DNA of 64,000 nucleotides, from assembly GCA_964035015.1 (NCBI GenBank), contig OZ035997.1, forward strand, positions 66,368,904-66,432,903, given 5' to 3'. Shown one piece after another: positions 2,151 to 63,290 of this stretch. The position numbers were made by a program, and so were the translations under genes. Position 1 is the stretch's first letter; each line of letters starts with the position of its first letter. This DNA is from Corallium rubrum (Eukaryota; Cnidaria; Anthozoa; Scleralcyonacea; Coralliidae). The notes beneath the pieces were generated by a model. The model worked only from the letters and a program-made list of their open reading frames with translations, was not told the origin of the DNA and ran no database searches.

Positions 2151-3650
2151 AAACTTTAATTTATGGGTTAAAAGATGATTGGTCGTCCCCTGTCACCTGA
2201 CATACGGAATTTACATACGGCCCGCTTGTGATTAACCCCCGGCCACTCGTATGAGATCTGTTGTGTTTCATTATATCAAATCCAACAAAAGCGTCTGGAA
2301 AAGGGAAACTAACATTTGGGAGACCTTTTATGAGGAACAAAAAAAAACTGAAACGAGGATATAAAATCGTGAAAACAGCCCAAATGGTCCACTTTTAAAA
2401 AAAAACCTTTCAAACATCCTTTCTTGATGAATTCCAGAATTTTTTTTTTTGGTTTGGGTCCCTTTTCGTCCCTTTTTCTTATACTTAAAAAATTTTTTAA
2501 AAAAGCTCACCGTCTCAAACAACCCTCCTTGCTAAATCTGATCATCTGGGGGTTGTTTTTGGTGTGAAAAAAAAAAGTGCGCCGGTAGCCTCAAGTTCTA
2601 TACTACTATAATCTTTCTATACCATATAGCCGGCGTGCTCTTAACAATTACAATTCTATAATATTTCTAAAATATAGTAAATTTCCATACTATTTCCAAT
2701 ATTTAACCTCGTAATCGAAATAATTCCAAAATATTTCCATAATATATACATATTATGGAAAACAATTTCCAAACTATGGAATTGTGCAAATCTCTGGAAA
2801 TCTGATTTCCAACTGAATTCTGTAAAATTTCCCGAATATTTCCATGGTATGGAAGACGTCAATTTTTCCAGTGAAGGGGGGGGGGGGTTATTGGATGTAG
2901 TGTTACCTAATATAGGCTATGTATATTCATATATTGGTATGTACAAAAACAGAATGACAACTGCTATTGTCACATTGCTCTCTACTGTACTATATGCCCC
3001 TGACATTTAACTCTTTCACACCTGATCGAGTGACTATTATATATATTTTTTTAAACTTTGGGGGGAGGGGTTGACTGTTACAACTATTATTGTCCAAGAT
3101 TGTAGTCAAATGATAGCTATTGAAGGTAAGCGCATTACCAGTTTATTAAATATATAACTTACTGTAAACACATGTGGTGACAGCTGTCATATATCACATA
3201 CAGTAATATAAAAGATAATTACTTTTTGTACAGCATACTGTAACTAATTTATGCAGTGGTGTGTGAACTGACTCAAATTCTAAGGCAAGCACTACCAGCA
3301 AGAGCCTCGTTTGGAAATTAGGTATAGTATACATCAAGTCCAACACATTCTCGGCTATTCATGAAAAGACTTTTCCAGATAATTAAATTGCCAGGCAAGG
3401 ATCATAATAGTTAGTTAATTATTTTGTTGCCATGCTGCATCACGATAAGTATAATGTCTTTTTCGTGACAATTTAAATGGAGATTGTTCAGGACAACCTG
3501 CAAGCTCTTGAAAATTTCTATTAGATTATTATAGGCAAGCATGCAGCACTTCCATTATATTATGTGACCATACACCACTGCATTTTATAGACATAATGGT
3601 CATCACTAAATGTACTTCATCAAGCATAAACATAATATACTGTTACTGTA
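2151..3650. other. Gene-free interval
   Basis: AT-rich sequence with homopolymer runs (poly-A near 2570, poly-G near 2880). Apart from the palindromic array listed separately I see no coding region. Confidence 0.5.
2645..2865. repeat. Array of short palindromic TTCCATA/TATGGAA words
   Basis: About 220 bp built from degenerate copies in both orientations of a near-palindrome of the form ATATTTCCAT / ATGGAAATAT, with no fixed period. It resembles in style the arrays at 4.93-5.09 kb and 43.3-43.9 kb. Confidence 0.7.
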
Positions 3651-5379: not shown

Positions 5380-7232
5380 ACCTTTTTGTCATGGGGAGCT
5401 CCCATCATCTCTCTAATACCATTAAGCACCATATTTATACAGGGCGATGTTGGCAACCTCTGATAAATTGATTTGGCTCAAGTAAAAAGTGGCACAAATA
5501 GATAAATTGTTAGATGTCTTCAGCAATGAAGAACAGAAAATTCTATAATCTTTACAATTAAATATCGAGTTTTTTCAGCTTAAAGCTGTTTAAACTTGCC
5601 GGTAATTACTATCAGAAGTCAGAAATTCCATTCGAAAGACCCAGTATATACAGTATTCTGTGTGTGCTGGCAATTGTGAATACACCAAGTCTACAAGGAG
5701 TTGGGTCCCCCACTAATGTTTCTTTGCTACAGCCCCTGGATTACCACCTGGACGTGCTTTAGTGAGTGTGGAAGAACCTCTGGCACCCAGGGTACCGTAC
5801 AACAATCCTAAAACTCCTTTCAATCCTTGAAAAATTTGGATAATTCCTTTACAGTACAAATGAAAATTGTAAATATATCAAAATTTCAAAGTTATATCTT
5901 AATTAATAAAATTTGAGAAAGAAAAACCTGGACGTGCAACCTTCTATCTCAAGAAAATCTTAGAACCTAGCCAAAAAATATGTACGCCTTTCTGTGGAGT
6001 GAATTCCCCCACAATTACTATACTATACTGTACTGTACTGTACTGTATATGTAGTTGTATAATTTAAAAACAGTTAGAAATCATTATGTAACATGTTATA
6101 CCTATCTTATGTTTATATGCTTTGGAACTAAGTGCATTGGCAACCTCGATTTCATCAAAATATGCAATAATTTGAAGACCACCTATATGCCACTAATATG
6201 CCATTTATGATTATAGAGTGGCCAGTAAGACATACGCATGATAACCTAGCCTACAGTAGTTCCTAAGAGTCAATTGGGAGCTTACAGTAGCTTGCATGTG
6301 GTCACATTGATAATCCTGTACATTAATGAGAGTTGGAGTGAAGCAATTGTATGTCCATACAGTGTACTCACCAAGTTTTGAATCAGTGGAACATAATAAA
6401 ACGTCGAAACTGATTTCACTAAGCGTCTCACTTTTTTCTTGCCTCTTCCTGTTTTAACCATTTTCCAGATCCATTTGCTTCCAAGCTGTTCAGCTCTAGG
6501 TTGCTACAAGTTATTAGGAAAGTATAATTATCTTATGAACTTAGTTATTCTTAGTATAATTATCCATAATTCAACCTCATGTAATATGTCTGATAGAGAT
6601 ACTCTGATGGAGAGGTATACGTACACGAACAGGTGCTCAAATGGAGTCCCTCCCCCTAACAGTCCAATGCCCTTGGTTTGAATTTCAGCACAATTTTGTT
6701 ATGAGACTTTGAGTATAATCCACTTGTCATTGAGAAACTCCTCCCTTGGAAAAATGGGGCCTATATTATGTGGGGATGGTTGGAGATTGGCTTACCACAT
6801 TTCCTTATCGGTTTGGGAATTCAGGCAGTTTAGCCAGTTTGCATGTATAGATTATTCTGTCAGGGAATCACAATGGGAACCTTGGGCCGGGTGACTGGGA
6901 CCTAATTTAGCTGCAATATTGGGCATAGTGTCCAATTACATATAACGAAGAATGACTGGGAACTACATACAAAGACTATTATATACAGAGAGATAATAGA
7001 TTAAACTAGAAGGAAAGTTGGGTAACCCACCATATTACTTTCATTGTTTCATGGTCACAGGTAGCAGAGCTTCCCCCCACACCCCCTAACACTATCAGCA
7101 GAGGGGGTGAGTTCCCTAAAATTTGACATCAGTAAAATGCAGTGCAAATGTGTAGTGCAGAATACACCAGAATGAAGTATTTGTGTGCTAAAGTTGATTT
7201 ATCTTTCTCGAGTTGTCTAGATGTCAAACTAT
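5380..7232. other. Gene-free interval
   Basis: No convincing gene. A small (ACTGT)n tract lies at about 6022-6048. Open frames here are short and lack codon structure or recognisable motifs. Confidence 0.45.
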
Positions 7233-55941: not shown

Positions 55942-56226
55942 CCTTCATGTCTCGAGTTCTAAAAACATAAGCGACAGAGTAGGCAACTAGCACATTCACA
56001 CAGCGTAGTTCTGGATCACACATATACTTCTTATAAGAATACATAAATTATACAAATATTATTACTTTGTCTCCCAATAGTCTTACTTTGGAGGGTGTGG
56101 TATGGTTGGAAAAGGGTTTTGCTGAGCGACGAGCTAGGTGGAGTAATTGCCTCGAAGGTGAGCTGATACAGACTAAGTCCTACAGGGAGCCAAGCAATTC
56201 TTTTTAGCCGAGAATCACCCTCTCCA
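55942..56226 (+). repeat. Direct repeat, left copy
   Basis: Starts TTAACCTTCATGTCTCGAGT and matches 62415-62643 in the same orientation. The left copy has about 58 extra bases (about 56122-56179) before CCTACAGGGAGCC. With the right copy it brackets the whole palindromic cassette. Confidence 0.88.
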
Positions 56227-56844: not shown

Positions 56845-57060
56845 GCTGATGCGACAGCTGAAATAACATGACACACAACAGGTGCGGCGGCTGAAATAAC
56901 AAGACACACAATAGGTGCGGCGCTGAAATAACATGACACACAATAGGTGCGGCGGCTGAAATAACAAGACACACAATAAGGTGCGGCGGCTGATATAACA
57001 TGACATACAGCAGGTGCGGTGACTGAAACAACACGACACCCAGCAGATGCGGCAGCAAGC
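56845..57060. repeat. About 33-bp minisatellite
   Basis: Imperfect copies of GGTGCGGCGGCTGAAATAAC followed by A(T/A)GACACACAATA lie between the left direct repeat and the palindrome. They keep minus frames open without being coding. Confidence 0.8.
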
Positions 57061-57296
57061 TAAGTGCGGCGACTGTATTAACCAGGAAAACAAACACAGC
57101 AAATGTGGCAGATGAAAGCAAGTGCGGTGGCTCAAAAAGGAACGTACGACAGTAGATAACCCCTCCCCCACAATCACCGTAACAAAGGGATGCCACCTCA
57201 TTAATATTCAGAGTGACTCACGCATCATGACTCACGCATGACTCACGCCTGTGACATGATTGGGCAAGATTGGTATAATTATAGTTTTCAAGAAGC

Positions 57297-57304
57297 TATA
57301 TAAG
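57297..57304 (+). promoter_or_regulatory. TATA box for left gene a
   Basis: TATATAAG lies 65 bp upstream of the ATG at 57362. The same box is kept in the right arm (61885-61892, minus). The spacing suits initiation near 57327. Confidence 0.55.
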
Positions 57305-57361
57305 CTCGGTGATTTCGTATAGTTGCTACTTTTCCTAAAATGTTTTACTTATCTATACGTA

Positions 57362-57873
57362 ATGTCGCTGTGTGATATAGTTGCCGTGATTGACATGGAT
57401 GGTTTTCACATAGGAAAGAAGTTCTTCTGTAAAGAACTAGGCGTTCTGAAGGTCGGAGAAACTGAAGGTTTATCGTTCTTCTTTGACATTGGCAAGAAAT
57501 GGGCTGACTTGTCAAGCAGAGAAAAGTATAATTGTAGATGGGTTGAAAAAAACATTCATCATTTACCATTCGGTGTCCCCCCATACACCAAGTACTATAA
57601 GATTGAGTGTTTGGGAGACATAATTTGGCAAATTTATGAAGAAGTTAAAATTGACGATAGGTCGAAGTTTGCATTCAAAGGTGGAAACTTAGAGCGTACA
57701 GTTTTAAAGGAGCGAGGAATTCCGTCAAAACTTTCGGCTGTCCAAAAGCAGAACATTTATTTCATGCCTTGACATGGCTGCAAACGTGTGGAAATCACGC
57801 AAAGATTAATGCATACCATCACTGTCCGAAAGTGGAAGTCGAAGCCTTTGGCAAATGGATAGCGCTCCAATAA
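57362..57873 (+). pseudogene. Gene a, left copy (frameshifted)
   Basis: ATG 57362 starts MSLCDIVAVIDMDGFHIGKK, and the frame follows the right-arm copy until about 57730. There a loss of about 13 bp shifts the frame, while downstream codons for CGNH and CPKVEVEAF remain in another frame. It has one extra Phe codon compared with the right copy. The stop TAA (57871-57873) lies inside the AATAAA at 57869-57874. See the intact copy at 61309 for the domain reading. Confidence 0.7.
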
Positions 57874-57985
57874 AATCTACTAAACACAAACGGTTCTTTT
57901 AAGAACCACCAAATCAGTAAAGAGTACAATGAAATACTCGTTATGTTGTCTTCCCCGTATAATAAATCTCATGAGGCGTTAATTG

Positions 57986-58270
57986 GGGCGATGACATTAA
58001 AATATCCGGCTAATAGCAATAAAAAGCAGTACACCTAAATATCCAAACAGAGTAAGTCATCCTAGAATTATTGCTAACTAAACCCTTCTTTATAAGCGAG
58101 GAAATCGTAGGAAGATAGAATGAGGAATCACTTTAAGAAGTCATGAAAAGAACGATTTTAGATGTTGAAATATAAAGGCAAAGCGATTTATTACTTTGAA
58201 AGCGTTGCTACGCTTTCTGTTGAAAGCGTTGCTACGCTTTCTGTTACTAAGTGTGATATTTGCATATTTA
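57986..58270. repeat. Left-arm-only segment with duplicated hairpin
   Basis: Absent from the right arm, where AATTG joins directly to TCCCCAGTGC. It contains GAAAGCGTTGCTACGCTTTC twice in tandem, each able to form an AAAGCG/CGCTTT stem, located between the convergent genes a and b. Confidence 0.75.
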
Positions 58271-58410
58271 TCCCCAGTGCACGTGCAGGAGACGAAAGAG
58301 AAACTCGTTAGGGGCAATTAAGAAGATTAGGCAAGTCTAGGCGAGAACGTCATTAACAACACGCGTACATGTAATACAGAATTTAAACTATTTTATTGAG
58401 AAATATATCT

Positions 58411-59090
58411 TTACACAAAAAACTCTTGATTATTTAGTGATCTATCGGTAACACTAGCATATGGGCATACAGTACATCTTATAATCCGAAGGCATGGATC
58501 ATGAGTCTTGAATTCTGTACCACAAACATTACACATCAGATTTCGAATAATGCATTTGTTAAAATATTTCAACAAACACTTAGGATACTCAATTACATGT
58601 GTAAAATTAACAGGATTCTGACAACGTTCACAATCAACAGGTTCGTCTATTATAGAATTTTCTGATTCTATTATGGTGTAATCCTTATCGTGTTCTGAAT
58701 CTTCTTCGGAGGAAGTTTCTTCGTTTTCGCTCTCTGATTCTGTTTCTTCTTCTGCCTGCACCAACATTGTCAGCACTCGAACATTTTCGATAAGGTTTTT
58801 GTCAATGTTAATGTCGGCGAGTCCTTTAATTTTACAAATACATTTAGACCAGCTGGTTCTGGAATTCCTGAGACGTAAGGTGATACGCAGTATTCTACCA
58901 ATTCGGCTATTTTTGTGTTTGGTATAGTTCTTCCTTGATACACAATTTCTCCTTTGGGATTCCATGTTAAGTTGACATAGGACGCGAGTAAACTATTCAG
59001 CAAAGAAGACTCTGTCGCTTCATCGACTCCGTAGTCAAAGTGTGAAAGTATTTCTTTAACACGAAAATCGTCATGTAATCTTTCTCCCAT
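58411..59090 (-). pseudogene. Gene b, left copy: helical N-part and four-CxxC zinc domain
   Basis: ATG 59090 opens MGERLHDDFRVKEILSHFDY, then NPKGEIVYQGRTIPNTKIAE and SGIPEPAGLNVF. After a frame change near 58830, which the right arm shares, it reads LADINIDKNLIENVRVL, a long Glu/Ser-rich acidic stretch, and a tail with CERCQNP, PKCLLKY, CNVCGTEF and CTVCPYA, and ends at 58411. Four CxxC-type pairs suggest two zinc ribbons. An AATAAA follows the stop by about 25 bp. I recognise the W/G-x-I/V..G..I....I..L + P-x-G motif from uncharacterised proteins of invertebrate mobile or viral elements, but no function is known to me. Confidence 0.6.
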
Positions 59091-59134
59091 CGTGTTCAGG
59101 GTTCGAATGAGGGTCTTTACAAAATATCGTTCTT

Positions 59135-59457
59135 TTATATTAGTTCTGCGAGTCCTTCTAAAACAGGACCAAGTAAGACATCAAGAAATCCTGCACCTTT
59201 TTGAACCAGTATCTCCTTTTTTCTCATAAAACTACTTCGGGGACTAGCCAAAGTTGATATGTTGTCGCTATAAGGCTTAACGTCTTCAAGCAAAGCAGGT
59301 GATAATTGTATTGATATTGCATTGACCAAAGGTTCAACATACAATCACAAATGCATCTAATTTGCCCGAGGTTTGCAGTCTCCAACAGAGCTCGCTGTTG
59401 AATAGGTTCACTTGTACATAAAAGTTCAAGAAACGGTTTGTGCTTTTTGATCAACAT
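59135..59457 (-). pseudogene. Gene c, left copy: small core-like protein (pX-like)
   Basis: ATG 59457 starts MLIKKHKPFLELLCT, then RALLETA..GQIRCICDCML. After a frame change it reads ISTLASPRSSF, KKEILVQKGAGFLDVLLG and PVLEGLAELI. The order (+KH...L, A+L..A....I..ICEC/CDC, then K..ILVQ.G.GFL..LL.P+L) matches a family of roughly 110-residue basic/hydrophobic-tailed proteins that I associate with Polinton/adintovirus-like elements, where they are compared with adenovirus core proteins. That link is from memory. The left copy is frameshifted. Confidence 0.5.
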
Positions 59458-59512
59458 CTCTATTTGACAGTCAGTGTCTAAATGAGGAAAACGCTACCAA
59501 AACGCACATTTT

Positions 59513-60034
59513 AAGAGGAGGAGGAGGAGGAGAAAGAGGGGGAGGAGGAGGAGGAGGAGAAAGAGGAGGAAGAGGAGAAAGAGGAGGAGGAGGAGAAAGA
59601 GGAGGAGGAGGAGGAGAAAGAGGAGGAGGAGAAAGAGGAGGAGGAGGAGGTGGAGGAGGAGGAGAAAGAGGAGGAGGAGGAGAAAGAGGAGGAAGAGGAG
59701 AAAGAGGAGGAGGAGGAGAAAGAGGAGGAGGAGGAGAAGGAGGAGGAGGAGGAAAAAGAGGAGGAGGAGAGAGGAGCAGGAGAAAGAGGAGGACGAGGAG
59801 AAAGAGGAGGAGGAGGAGGAGGAGGAGGAGAAAGAGGAGGAGAAGAAGGAGGAGAAAGAGGAGAAGGAGAATAAATATTTCTAGAGAATGTCTTATTATT
59901 TATTCTCCTCCTCCTCTTTCTCCTCCTCCTCCTCTTTCTACTCCTCCTCCTCCTCCTGTTTCTCCTCCTCCTCCTCCTCTTTCTCCTCCTCCTCCTTCTC
60001 TTTCTCCTCCTTCTCCTCCTCCTCCTCCTCCTCT
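59513..60034. repeat. (GGA)n polypurine / (TCC)n polypyrimidine axis
   Basis: About 360 bp of GAGGAGGAG and GGAGAAAGA words (59513-59872), then a 21-bp spacer within AATAAAT...ATTTATT, then about 134 bp of the complementary tract. The tracts can pair with each other or form triplex-type structures. Open frames of poly-Glu or poly-Gly here are not genes. Confidence 0.95.
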
Positions 60035-60090
60035 TAAAATGTGTGTTTTGGTAGCGTTTTCCTTATTTAGACACTGACTGTCAAATAGAG

Positions 60091-60380
60091 ATGTTGATCA
60101 AAAAGCACAAACCGTTTCTTGAACTTTTATGTACAAGTGAACCTATTCAACAGCGAACTCTGTTGGAGACTGCAAACCCCGAGCAAATTAGATGCATTTG
60201 TGATTGTATGTTGAACTTTTGATCAATGCAATATCAATTATCACCTGCTTTGCTTGAAGACGTTAAGCCTTATAGCGACGACATATCAATTTTGGCTAGT
60301 CCCCGAAGTAGTTTTGAGAAAAAAGGAGATACTGGTTCAAAAAGGTGCAGGATTTCTTGATGTCTTACTTGGTCCTGAAC
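60091..60380 (+). pseudogene. Gene c, right copy
   Basis: Starts at ATG 60091 with the same reading as the left copy, meets a TGA about 46 codons in (after CMLNF), and its 3' end is fused to gene b by a deletion of about 68 bp at a shared CCTG. Confidence 0.5.
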
Positions 60381-60383
60381 ATG

Positions 60384-61057
60384 ATGGGAGAAAGATTACA
60401 CGACGATTTTCGTGTTAAAGAAATACTGTCACACTTTGACTACGGAGTCGATGAAGCGACAGCGTCTTCTTTGCTGAATAGTTTACTTGCGTCCTATGTC
60501 AACTTAACATGGAATCCCAAAGGAGAAATTGTGTATCAAAGAAGAACTACACCAAACACAAAAATAGCCGAATTGGTAGAATACTGCGTATCACCTTACG
60601 TCTCAGGAATTCCAGAACCAGCTGGTCTAAATGTATTTGTAAAATTAAAGGACTCGCCGACATTAACATTGACAAAAACCTTATCGAAAATGTTCGAGTG
60701 CTGACAATGTTGGCGCAGGCAGAAGAAGAAACAGAATCAGAGAGCGAAAACGAAGAAACTTCCTCCGAAGATTCAGAACACGATAAGGATTACACCAAAA
60801 TAGAATCAGAAAATTCTATAATTGACGAACCTATTGATTGCGAACGTTGTCAGAATCCTGTTAATTTTACACGTGTGATTGGGTGTCCTAAGTGTTTGTT
60901 GAAATATTTAAAAAAATGCGTTCGAAATCTGATATGTAATGTTTGTGGTACAGAATTCAAGACTCATGATCCATGCCTTCGGATTATAAGATGTACTGTA
61001 TGCCCATATGCTAGTGTTACCGATAGATCACTGAATAATCAAGAGTTTTTTGTGTAA
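60384..61057 (+). pseudogene. Gene b, right copy
   Basis: MGERLHDDFRVKEILSHF from 60384, the same frame change in the VFVK.K region as the left copy, then LADINIDKNLIENVRVL, the acidic stretch, and the tail CERCQNP, GCPKCLLKYLKKC, CNVCGTEF, CTVCPYA with stop at 61055-61057. In this copy the second zinc pair reads GCPKC, more regular than the left copy's EYPKC. AATAAA follows at about 61072. Confidence 0.6.
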
Positions 61058-61308
61058 AGATATATTTCTCAATAAAATAGTTTAAATTCTGTATTACATG
61101 TACGCGTGTTGTTAATGACTTTCTCGCCTAGACTTGCCAAACCTCTTAATTGCCCCTAATGAGTTTCTCTTTTGTCTCCTGTACGTGCACTGGGGACAAT
61201 TAACGCCTCATGAGATTTATTATACGGGGAAGACAACATAACGAGTATTTCATTGTACTCTTTACTGATTTGGTGGTTCTTAAAAGAACCGTTTGTGTTT
61301 AGTAGATT

Positions 61309-61827
61309 TTATTGGAGCGCTATCCATTTGGCAAAGGCTTCGACTTCCACTTTCGGACAGAGATGGTATGCATTAATCTTTGTGTGATTTCCACACGTTT
61401 GCAGCCATGTCAAGGCATCAAATAAATGTTCTGCTTTTGCACAGCCGAAACTTTCTAGGTTGATGGACGGAATTGCTAGCTCCTTTAAAACTGTACGCTC
61501 TAAGTTTCCACCGTTGAATGCAAACTTCGACCTATCGTCAATTTTAACTTCTTCATAAATTTGCCAAATTATGTCTCCCAAACACTCAATCTTATAGTAC
61601 TTGGTGTATGGGGGGACACCGAATGGTAAATGATGAATGTTTTTTTCAACCCATCTACAATTATACTTTTCTCTGCTTGACAAGTCAGCCCATTTCTTGC
61701 CAATGTCAAAGAACGATAAACCTTCAGTTTCTCCGACCTTCAGAACGCCTAGTTCTTTACAGAAGAACTTCTTTCCTATGTGAAAACCATCCATGTCAAT
61801 CACGGCAACTATATCACACAGCGACAT
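61309..61827 (-). CDS. Gene a, right copy, intact 172-aa protein
   Basis: ATG 61827-61825, chosen because it lies about 60 bp downstream of a TATATAAG box; a longer upstream reading lacks an ATG. It reads MSLCDIVAVIDMDGFHIGKK, FFCKELGVL, then LPFGVPPY, ..GGNLERTVLKELAIPS, INLESFGCAKAEHLF, LQTCGNH and CPKVEVEAFAKWI. The N-terminal D-x-D-G-F followed by KEL, and the late C..H / C....V..F..W block, recall a family of small invertebrate transposon or virus-like proteins that may have a DEDDh-exonuclease-like fold; this is a guess. The stop TAA (61311-61309) overlaps AATAAA (61313-61308). It is the only uninterrupted gene of the cassette. Confidence 0.6.
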   Translation of the reverse strand: MSLCDIVAVIDMDGFHIGKKFFCKELGVLKVGETEGLSFFDIGKKWADLSSREKYNCRWVEKNIHHLPFGVPPYTKYYKIECLGDIIWQIYEEVKIDDRSKFAFNGGNLERTVLKELAIPSINLESFGCAKAEHLFDALTWLQTCGNHTKINAYHLCPKVEVEAFAKWIALQ

Positions 61828-61884
61828 TACGTATAGATAAGTAAAACACTTTAGGAAAAGTAGCAACTATACGAAATCACCGAG

Positions 61885-61892
61885 CTTATATA
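61885..61892 (-). promoter_or_regulatory. TATA box for right gene a
   Basis: TATATAAG on the minus strand, mirror of 57297-57304, 58 bp upstream of the ATG at 61827. Confidence 0.55.
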
Positions 61893-62414
61893 GCTTCATG
61901 TATACTATAATTATACCAATCTTGCCCAATCATGTCACAGGCGTGAGTCATGCGTGAGTCATGGTGCGCGAGTCACTCTGAATATTAATGAGGCGGCATC
62001 CCTTTGTTACGGTGGATGGGGGGGTTATCTACTTACGACACATCAGGTGCAGTGGCCGGGGATAGCCTGAAGAGACGTTTCAGCAGGCAGTTAACCAGGG
62101 AGCGGCGAAAATGTATAGGCATTACTGCGACACAGGATTGAAGAGACAGCAGAGACAAGCGAGACGGCACCCACGAATCAGACGCAAGAACGAAGAACAC
62201 GGGTGTGGATCGACTGAGGGCGAAGTGCAGTGCTAGCAAATGCGTGACGGGAACTTCAACAGATGTCACATCCGCTCTATGCTGATTGGATGATCAGGGC
62301 AACCGGAACGGCCCTGGGAACCAGGCACACCCCCACCCTAGAGCCCATACTCTAAAGACCAAACACACGAACGCCAGCCATGCGGTTAATTTTATTTATT
62401 GCATAAATTCATTT

Positions 62415-62643
62415 AACCTTCATGTCTCGAGTTCTAGAAACGTAAGCGACAGAGTAGGCAACTAGCACATTCACACAGCGTAGTTCTGGATCACACATAT
62501 ACTTCTTACAAGAATACATAAATTATACAAATATTATTACTTTTTCTTCCAATAGTCTTACTTTGGAGGGTGTAGTACGGTTGGAGAAGGGTTTTCCTAC
62601 AGGGAGCCAAGCAATTCTTTTTAGCCGAGGATCACCCTCTCCA
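62415..62643 (+). repeat. Direct repeat, right copy
   Basis: Same sequence and orientation as 55942-56226, with about 58 bp missing before CCTACAGGGAGCC. It lies between the palindrome and the tyrosine recombinase remnant, downstream of the recombinase on its strand. Confidence 0.88.
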
Positions 62644-62731: not shown

Positions 62732-63290
62732 CCAGATAGTGGGCGGTGGACTGCAGCATGTCCGGGGGAGTATGAATATATCGCAAATAGGCATCACTCG
62801 TCCAATGCCTGAGGGTCTTGATCAGGTAGCAGCACCAATCCTAAAACTGTGACTTGAGTAGCGGCCCAGCACACCAGCGGCGTTAAGAATGGAGTGCAGG
62901 CATGCGTTAACAATGGTCGGAAACAGTGGTGCACCAGACTGACAAACAAATAGTGGACCCGGTAAATTCCCTCTGATGCGGAGATACGCCAGGAGGGCAT
63001 AGACCGGGCAAATCGGCTTGCCCGAACAGCCCAGATAAACAAAACAACCCCGACGAAACGGATCTGTCTTGGAGGACTTAAGTAACAGGCGAATGCCCGA
63101 AACAGGCAGCAGAACAACATCAGCAAGTGCGAGGTCACGGGACGCATCGAAGGAAGAGGAACAAGTAAATTCACTGACTCGGAAGAATCCAAAATACGCG
63201 AGACAACAGGCTGTCCAAAACATGAAGTGGTCGAACGAGCCCGAGGTCGAAGACGCTTGGATGACGTTAGACTTGGCTCAAGTTTGTCTC
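62732..63290 (-). pseudogene. DIRS-type tyrosine recombinase, 5'-truncated and frameshifted
   Basis: The minus strand from about 63260 reads SFDHFMFWTACCLAYFGFFR (the R of FFRVSEFT is the first catalytic Arg), LLLKSSKTDPFRRG with the catalytic Lys, GKPICPVYALLAYL, GPLFVCQSGAPLF and YSSHSFRIGAAT (catalytic H-x-x-R). After one frame change near 62822 come IKTLRHWTSDAYLRYIHTP with the nucleophilic Tyr, and MLQSTAHYLV with a stop near 62732. All catalytic residues are readable. The N-terminal DNA-binding half is missing. Such recombinases integrate DIRS, PAT and Ngaro retroelements. Confidence 0.8.

Follow-up and report, generated by a model that had tools for sequence, protein, structure and literature searches.

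How does a mobile element come to be the mirror image of itself? The question is raised by a small element in a 64,000-bp stretch of the Corallium rubrum genome (contig OZ035997.1, positions 66,368,904 to 66,432,903 of the forward strand; the window hereafter), whose two inverted arms meet at a purine-rich tract and whose outer ends resemble those of Polinton (Maverick) transposons. We propose, with a probability of roughly 0.6, that this element is an end-duplication palindrome, which arose by fold-back during the (probably protein-primed) replication of a Polinton and was inserted as one linear molecule by an integrase acting in trans; the fold-back step, the protein priming and the supply of integrase in trans are what we infer.

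A mobile palindrome with Polinton ends

The inverted arms were recovered by two methods, and the left arm agrees with the reverse complement of the right one at 1,937 of 1,993 ungapped columns (97.2%), far above chance. The palindrome, known here from the assembled sequence alone, is genuine and has the behaviour of a mobile unit. An original prediction, made from the letters of the window, had described a palindrome at 57146..62037 folded on a GGA/TCC core; both the palindrome and its core, formed by a purine and a pyrimidine run around an A+T-rich axis (Table 1), were recovered, while the exact ends had to be moved to 57151 and 62033. The proposed tie to Polintons and the dimer-like or foldback nature of the element are both borne out; its ends are of Polinton type, and its terminal repeat is common to full-length Polintons of the same genome.

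Target-site duplications were counted over the 14 palindromic loci with both ends read (L018, whose right tip is unread, and L030 stand outside this count). Perfect 6-bp duplications, all different, flank 12 of them (TACGAC in the window, CACCAC, GAAGTA, GTCGGC, CAAGTT, CATGTG, AAGGCA, GGTGTT, GATGTT, GACCTC, CACAAG and GGTGTG), and at L021 five of the six bases match. At L017, a composite, CAAGTT holds for the outermost ends only: it lies beside the tip of a pPolB end on one side and beside the right a-end (the end that carries gene a) on the other. Since 12 of the 14 loci have perfect duplications, the palindromes most likely arrived as units.

Sister palindromes in the same genome

The 474-Mb assembly that holds the window was searched for relatives; the best candidates were scored, and all counts are thus lower bounds. 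The search with the right end gave at least 50 matches (the best 40 of 707 candidates scored), many of them as inverted pairs, and 20 genome stretches were read, which revealed further palindromes. Some of these derive from the a/c end of Polintons, others from the pPolB end. L020 is a full palindrome with arms 94.7% identical with the tract and 96.7% without it, and L016 is another one. In L015, L017 and L021 each arm combines gene a with part of the ATPase C-terminus, and the centre between the arms is asymmetric and holds the c-b gene (see below) and a C2H2-A32 ATPase; the whole ATPase frame is kept in L017, and codons ~9-88 in L020. L030 (G000:C15:438500-448400) has otherwise the same layout, with a gene x replacing a in both arms; gene x (161 aa; 1225-1707 on the + strand and 5487-5969 on the - strand) has no Pfam match. 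L013 and L014 together make up, one half each, a pPolB-end palindrome composed of terminal repeat, pPolB, repeats and a truncated ATPase, followed by their mirror image.

Judged by position only, both strands are matched within 16 kb at five of 34 pPolB loci (at least 42 matches), at eight of 105 ATPase loci (at least 114 matches) and at 8/19 a-end loci. The pPolB of relatives with the same ends as the window element belongs to PF03175 (E 9e-47), and no relative of it was confirmed among the viral contigs.

Several other arrangements were observed. At L043, L017 and L042 (G000:C8 ~1419857-1427981) a pPolB end (residues 1-350) directly adjoins an a-end terminal repeat, forming a two-end composite. 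L022 (G000:C20) holds at 1076-1800 a 0.7-kb miniature derivative with little beyond two terminal repeats, flanked by the perfect duplication GGTGTT. L018, L036 and L037 (G000:C18 ~15457018-15467200) form a large palindrome with rearranged pPolB pieces, a gene a fragment in each arm and a satellite centre. L009-L012 (G000:C1:71425500-71460000) correspond to an a-type palindrome with the duplication CACCAC, whose ends lie ~30 kb apart and which is interrupted by ~20 kb of other sequence; a pPolB end lies ~2 kb upstream. L028 carries another inverted repeat (1-680 and 2490-3168, 98.8% over 680 bases), outside its Polinton part.

Full-length Polintons in the same genome

The single pPolB locus on C13 is non-palindromic in the part read and has ~13.2 kb between its duplications (TATATC); both ends of this full-length Polinton carry the terminal repeat of the window type. 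Between the window and L029, the other half of the C13 element, this repeat is 86% identical over 175 aligned columns, and it is also present at the pPolB-side tips of five further loci. Identified in L029 were a GRF zinc protein (PF06839), an rve integrase (PF00665, E 1e-15) with a chromodomain (PF00385), an A32 ATPase and a core-like pair of frames, as well as frames that resemble minor capsid, major capsid and protease by position and look and that have no Pfam match. In a sample of five further single pPolB loci, genes of the far half were identified at four: capsid-like, protease-like and core-like frames at L044, GRF and a 133-aa frame at L046 and L048, and GRF, the 133-aa frame and integrase at L050; there were none in the stretch of L052 that was read. 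Two of these five have both ends read, one with the perfect duplication CTGGTC and the other without a perfect duplication. Full-length relatives of the kind envisaged by the original prediction, with pPolB, integrase and capsid-like frames, are thus present in the genome; gene a, expected next to these, was not found in L029, the sole full-length Polinton with its middle read.

Gene content of the element

Each arm had been predicted to carry a TATA-driven gene a, a zinc-domain gene b and a core-like gene c. A TATA-like box was indeed identified ~58 bases upstream of gene a in both arms, and gene a itself has an open frame of 172 aa in the right arm only, the left copy being frameshifted. The predicted c and b are not separate genes but halves of one gene (c-b), interrupted in both arms of the window element by one and the same insertion of 5 bases; L027 and both L020 arms lack it. 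The c-b frame has one internal stop in L021 and two in each L020 arm. Homology searches with c alone (36 candidates) and with b alone (2 candidates) gave no match at E up to 0.001, and the two were understood because relatives in the same genome were read. No zinc domain reached the Pfam cut-off for b. The core-like guess fared better, as the left stretch before c matches the N-terminal core-like frame of the full-length Polinton in L029 (38%, E 2.5e-12).

For gene a we predict a 3'-5' exonuclease of the DEDD type, as its modelled structure has an RNase H-like exonuclease fold. Residues D11, D13, E110, H156 and E161 are invariant or at least 90% conserved across 37 aligned rows; in our reading, these may be the equivalents of the catalytic set (acidic set plus His). 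The protein may perhaps process viral nucleic acid. No relative of gene a was confirmed among the viral contigs searched, and a PDB sequence search gave no match. The dN/dS ratio is 0.11 for pPolB (3 pairs) and 0.58 for gene a (36 pairs of copies), so that gene a is weakly constrained among the copies compared. Within 57151-62033 there was no match to pPolB, to the L029 integrase or to three ATPases of relatives (each at E up to 0.01), nor to the capsid-like or protease-like candidate frames of L029. By its gene content, the window element is therefore a non-autonomous Polinton derivative and not itself a Polinton.

Table 1. Features of the palindromic element and of its borders (positions in the window).
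Feature	Position	Strand	Remarks
Whole palindromic element	57151..62033	.	4,883 bp, AGTAGATAACC...GGTTATCTACT ends
Left target-site duplication TACGAC	57145..57150	.	perfect 6-bp direct repeat, confirmed by separate search
Right target-site duplication TACGAC	62034..62039	.	perfect 6-bp direct repeat, confirmed by separate search
Left terminal repeat, ~200 bp	57151..57350	+	common to Polinton elements of the same genome; mirror copy used as probe
Right terminal repeat, ~200 bp	61836..62033	-	common to Polinton elements of the same genome
TATA-like box TATATAAG before left gene a	57297..57304	+	mirror copy 61885-61892, - strand
Gene a, left copy	57362..57870	+	frameshifted, open to 57772
Segment in left arm only, ~285 bases	57986..58270	.	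absent from right arm
c-b gene, left copy	58411..59192	-	split into two frames
Stretch upstream of c, left arm	59132..59430	-	matches N-terminal core-like frame of L029, 37.7% over 61 aa; open frame 59224-59457 here
GGA-rich purine tract	59513..59871	+	359-base purine run
Palindrome axis, 31 bases	59872..59902	.	A+T-rich, borders AATAAAT/ATTTATT
TCC-rich pyrimidine tract	59903..60035	+	133-base pyrimidine run
Mirror of stretch upstream of c, right arm	60118..60324	+	weaker match to L029 core-like frame, 23% over 69 aa, E 1.7e-5
c-b gene, right copy	60312..61057	+	split into two frames: c 60360-60704, b 60707-61057
Gene a, right copy	61309..61827	-	open, 172 aa, predicted DEDD-type 3'-5' exonuclease fold

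The segment present in the left arm only points to a loss in the right arm, since several other copies have ~250-280 bases at this site. In the surroundings of the element, a 33-bp minisatellite occupies 56850-57053, with a degenerate border at which the element seems to have landed. When the flanks were joined as an empty site, they carried on this minisatellite with a score of 46 (maximum 33 in 500 shuffles); shifts of -3 and -6 bases scored 47 and 44, so the score does not fix the insertion point. A direct repeat, seen by eye on both sides of the element (56000-56130 and 62478-62600), apparently belongs to another repeat family, into or beside which the element inserted. A 133-aa frame on the - strand (62822-63223) looks like a piece of a tyrosine recombinase and has no match in Pfam.

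Kinship of the arms and position of the axes

In the coding part of the pPolB palindromes, arms differ at 23/3537, 1/3543 and 3/3541 positions within elements and at 117-145 between elements. For the window and L020, all 27 two-against-two informative sites group the arms by element and none by side, and for six of the nine elements in the gene-a tree (window, L020, L021, L009+L012, L019 and L018) each arm has the other as its closest relative. The axes differ among the five simple palindromes that were read, and all five lie in or at simple or self-pairing repeats: at the edge of the purine tract in the window, where ATPase codon ~88 is joined to the tract in L020, at ATPase codon ~215 within self-complementary repeats in L013 (of L013/L014), where ATPase codon ~167 is joined to a repeat tract in L032/L033, and in a tandem-repeat tract in L034/L035.

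Origin of the palindromes

In the mechanism that we propose, a strand of a linear Polinton genome would start at one end, probably protein-primed, and would turn back at a repeat or hairpin (near the c-b gene in the case of the window). The folded strand would then copy itself to the end. Its product, a palindromic linear molecule with a proper end on either side, could be inserted in trans by the integrase of a helper Polinton. Protein priming is suggested by the family of pPolB (PF03175) and by published accounts of polintons, in the parts of them available to us (PMC4028283; PMC11071308).

Several observations weigh against this mechanism. The weakest point is the parent of gene a: the genome yielded no full-length element that has both gene a and the c-b gene, and the arrangement of c-b and ATPase is unlike that of L029, where ATPase and core-like frames stand in tandem on one strand, whereas in the relatives of the window element c-b and ATPase diverge from the tract. 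The pPolB palindrome at C1:17.72 Mb lacks a matching duplication, and in L017 the letters beside the inner a-end differ from those of the right flank. The gene-a tree leaves three of nine elements unsettled (L015, L016 and L017), with strong support on one branch only. The purine tract is unable to self-pair, so that only the short A+T-rich core could seed the fold of the window element. Moreover, L015, L017, L021 and L030 share one junction, yet their arms are near-identical (98-99.8% in the main arm stretches). The common junction, the near-identical arms and the different cargo of these four loci point to copying between arms after formation; the argument that sister arms prove separate origins was dropped, as these loci have near-identical arms too. 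Differing axes and later copying from arm to arm are both compatible with a genome in which single strands fold back on themselves.

The best rival is the head-to-head end-joining of two truncated linear Polinton molecules, with integration of the dimer through its two intact ends. The asymmetric centres of L020 and L032/L033 are such as random joins would give, and in L017 a pPolB end is joined straight to an a-end, with a single duplication around the outside; nevertheless, random joins would not be expected to place the axes of five simple palindromes in or at simple or self-pairing repeats, and the arms share changes private to their element, which makes this origin unlikely. An old stable lineage, in which a small Polinton-dependent satellite is inherited as a palindrome and its arms are kept alike by inter-arm copying in each round, is doubtful, if a little less so; it overlaps with our proposal, fold-back still being the origin, and the odds of the two are not exclusive. 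It would account for the single asymmetric junction in four loci with two different cargo genes in both arms (a in L015, L017 and L021, x in L030) and for the likeness of these arms, whereas the differing axes of the simple palindromes, including the window versus L020 and the three pPolB ones, speak for repeated formation.

The remaining explanations are far less probable. Two elements inserted side by side in opposite orientation, with loss of the DNA between them and mobility of the resulting composite, would suit the clustering of elements in places (C1:71.43 Mb), but their arms should differ like random copies, and those of the pPolB palindromes differ by 0.03-0.65%, against 3.3-4.1% between elements; we consider this origin very improbable. 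Even less credit is due to a palindrome made in place, by a chromosomal break beside an integrated Polinton and repair through fold-back inversion: such inversions through hairpins are described in yeast, in the available part of the report (PMC7467729), and L018 has inverted pPolB flanks outside its a-copies, although this locus is equally consistent with a larger pPolB palindrome; yet inversion in place should give mirrored flanks with no direct 6-bp repeat, and such a repeat is present at 12 of the 14 loci. False hairpin joins of the assembly or library are the least credible of all, given outer flanks that differ and carry direct 6-bp repeats, differences scattered between the arms (2.8% in the window) and the spread of copies over many contigs. 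The concern of the original prediction about an assembly artefact is thus largely answered, within the assembled sequence, by the many copies with target duplications of their own, and its interpretation as a whole is partly supported.

Beyond the fold-back origin, which we favour, a bolder and more tentative idea is that Polintons might shed palindromic satellite genomes as a second life form, replicated and integrated by a helper, with arms recopied in each round; these would be the integrated counterpart of the defective genomes of adenoviruses. In such satellites the displaced strand would be its own hairpin, so that the arms would be recopied from each other every round and kept alike, and both arms could acquire a new cargo at one stroke, be it exonuclease a or gene x.

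Comparison with known systems

Vertebrate Mavericks, in the part of the report available, have end motifs (AGT)2//(ACT)2 or (AG)3//(CT)3 and perfect 6-bp duplications (PMC8097293), and Polintons measure 15-20 kb according to the accessible part of another account (PMC4028283). The window element shares with them AG...CT ends of the AGTAGAT type, the 6-bp target duplication, the terminal repeat of the full-length Polintons of its genome and a related core-like gene; it differs in being mirror-image, 4.88 kb long and devoid of matches to the pPolB, integrase, ATPase, capsid-like and protease-like frames of its relatives. Regarding adintoviruses, a Foldseek comparison pairs the predicted fold of gene a with that of an uncharacterised protein from Drosophila-associated adintovirus 2 (E 3.3e-7, TM ~0.75), whereas gene a has no confirmed sequence relative among the viral contigs.

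Defective adenovirus genomes with duplicated inverted left ends (symmetric recombinants) are a case in which a protein-primed linear genome with terminal repeats yields end-duplicated palindromes; unlike the window element, they are free molecules, with neither integration nor integrase. Derivatives of yeast linear killer plasmids (pGKL1 F2 type) are head-to-head palindromes from one end of a protein-primed linear element, which are cytoplasmic and do not integrate. Foldback (FB) transposons also have long inverted arms with simple repeats, but they belong to another transposase class with longer duplications, from which the window element differs by its 6-bp duplication and Polinton ends. Palindromic end-duplications are thus known for adenoviruses and yeast linear plasmids, which serve as analogues here. 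Among the matches listed in a search of the Polinton literature (titles and abstract starts, with most subscription journals outside its coverage) there was no report of such palindromes, whether as inverted duplications, nonautonomous elements or foldback and head-to-head forms, and the available parts of a paper on dinoflagellate Polinton-like viruses (PLV; PMC12721341) and of a review on giant transposons (PMC6431247) have nothing on palindromes.

Implications for Polinton replication

Palindromes of duplicated ends are the expected remains of a protein-primed cycle when a strand folds back. The replication of Polintons has been inferred from their gene content and, to our knowledge, their protein-primed cycle has never been watched in an animal. 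If our proposal is true, the intermediates of Polinton replication would have left a fossil record in any genome rich in target-duplicated palindromes, and small Polinton satellites, as well as gene-containing long terminal repeats, would have a simple origin. If Polintons do shed palindromic satellites, these would be direct genomic evidence for the protein-primed linear replication of Polintons.

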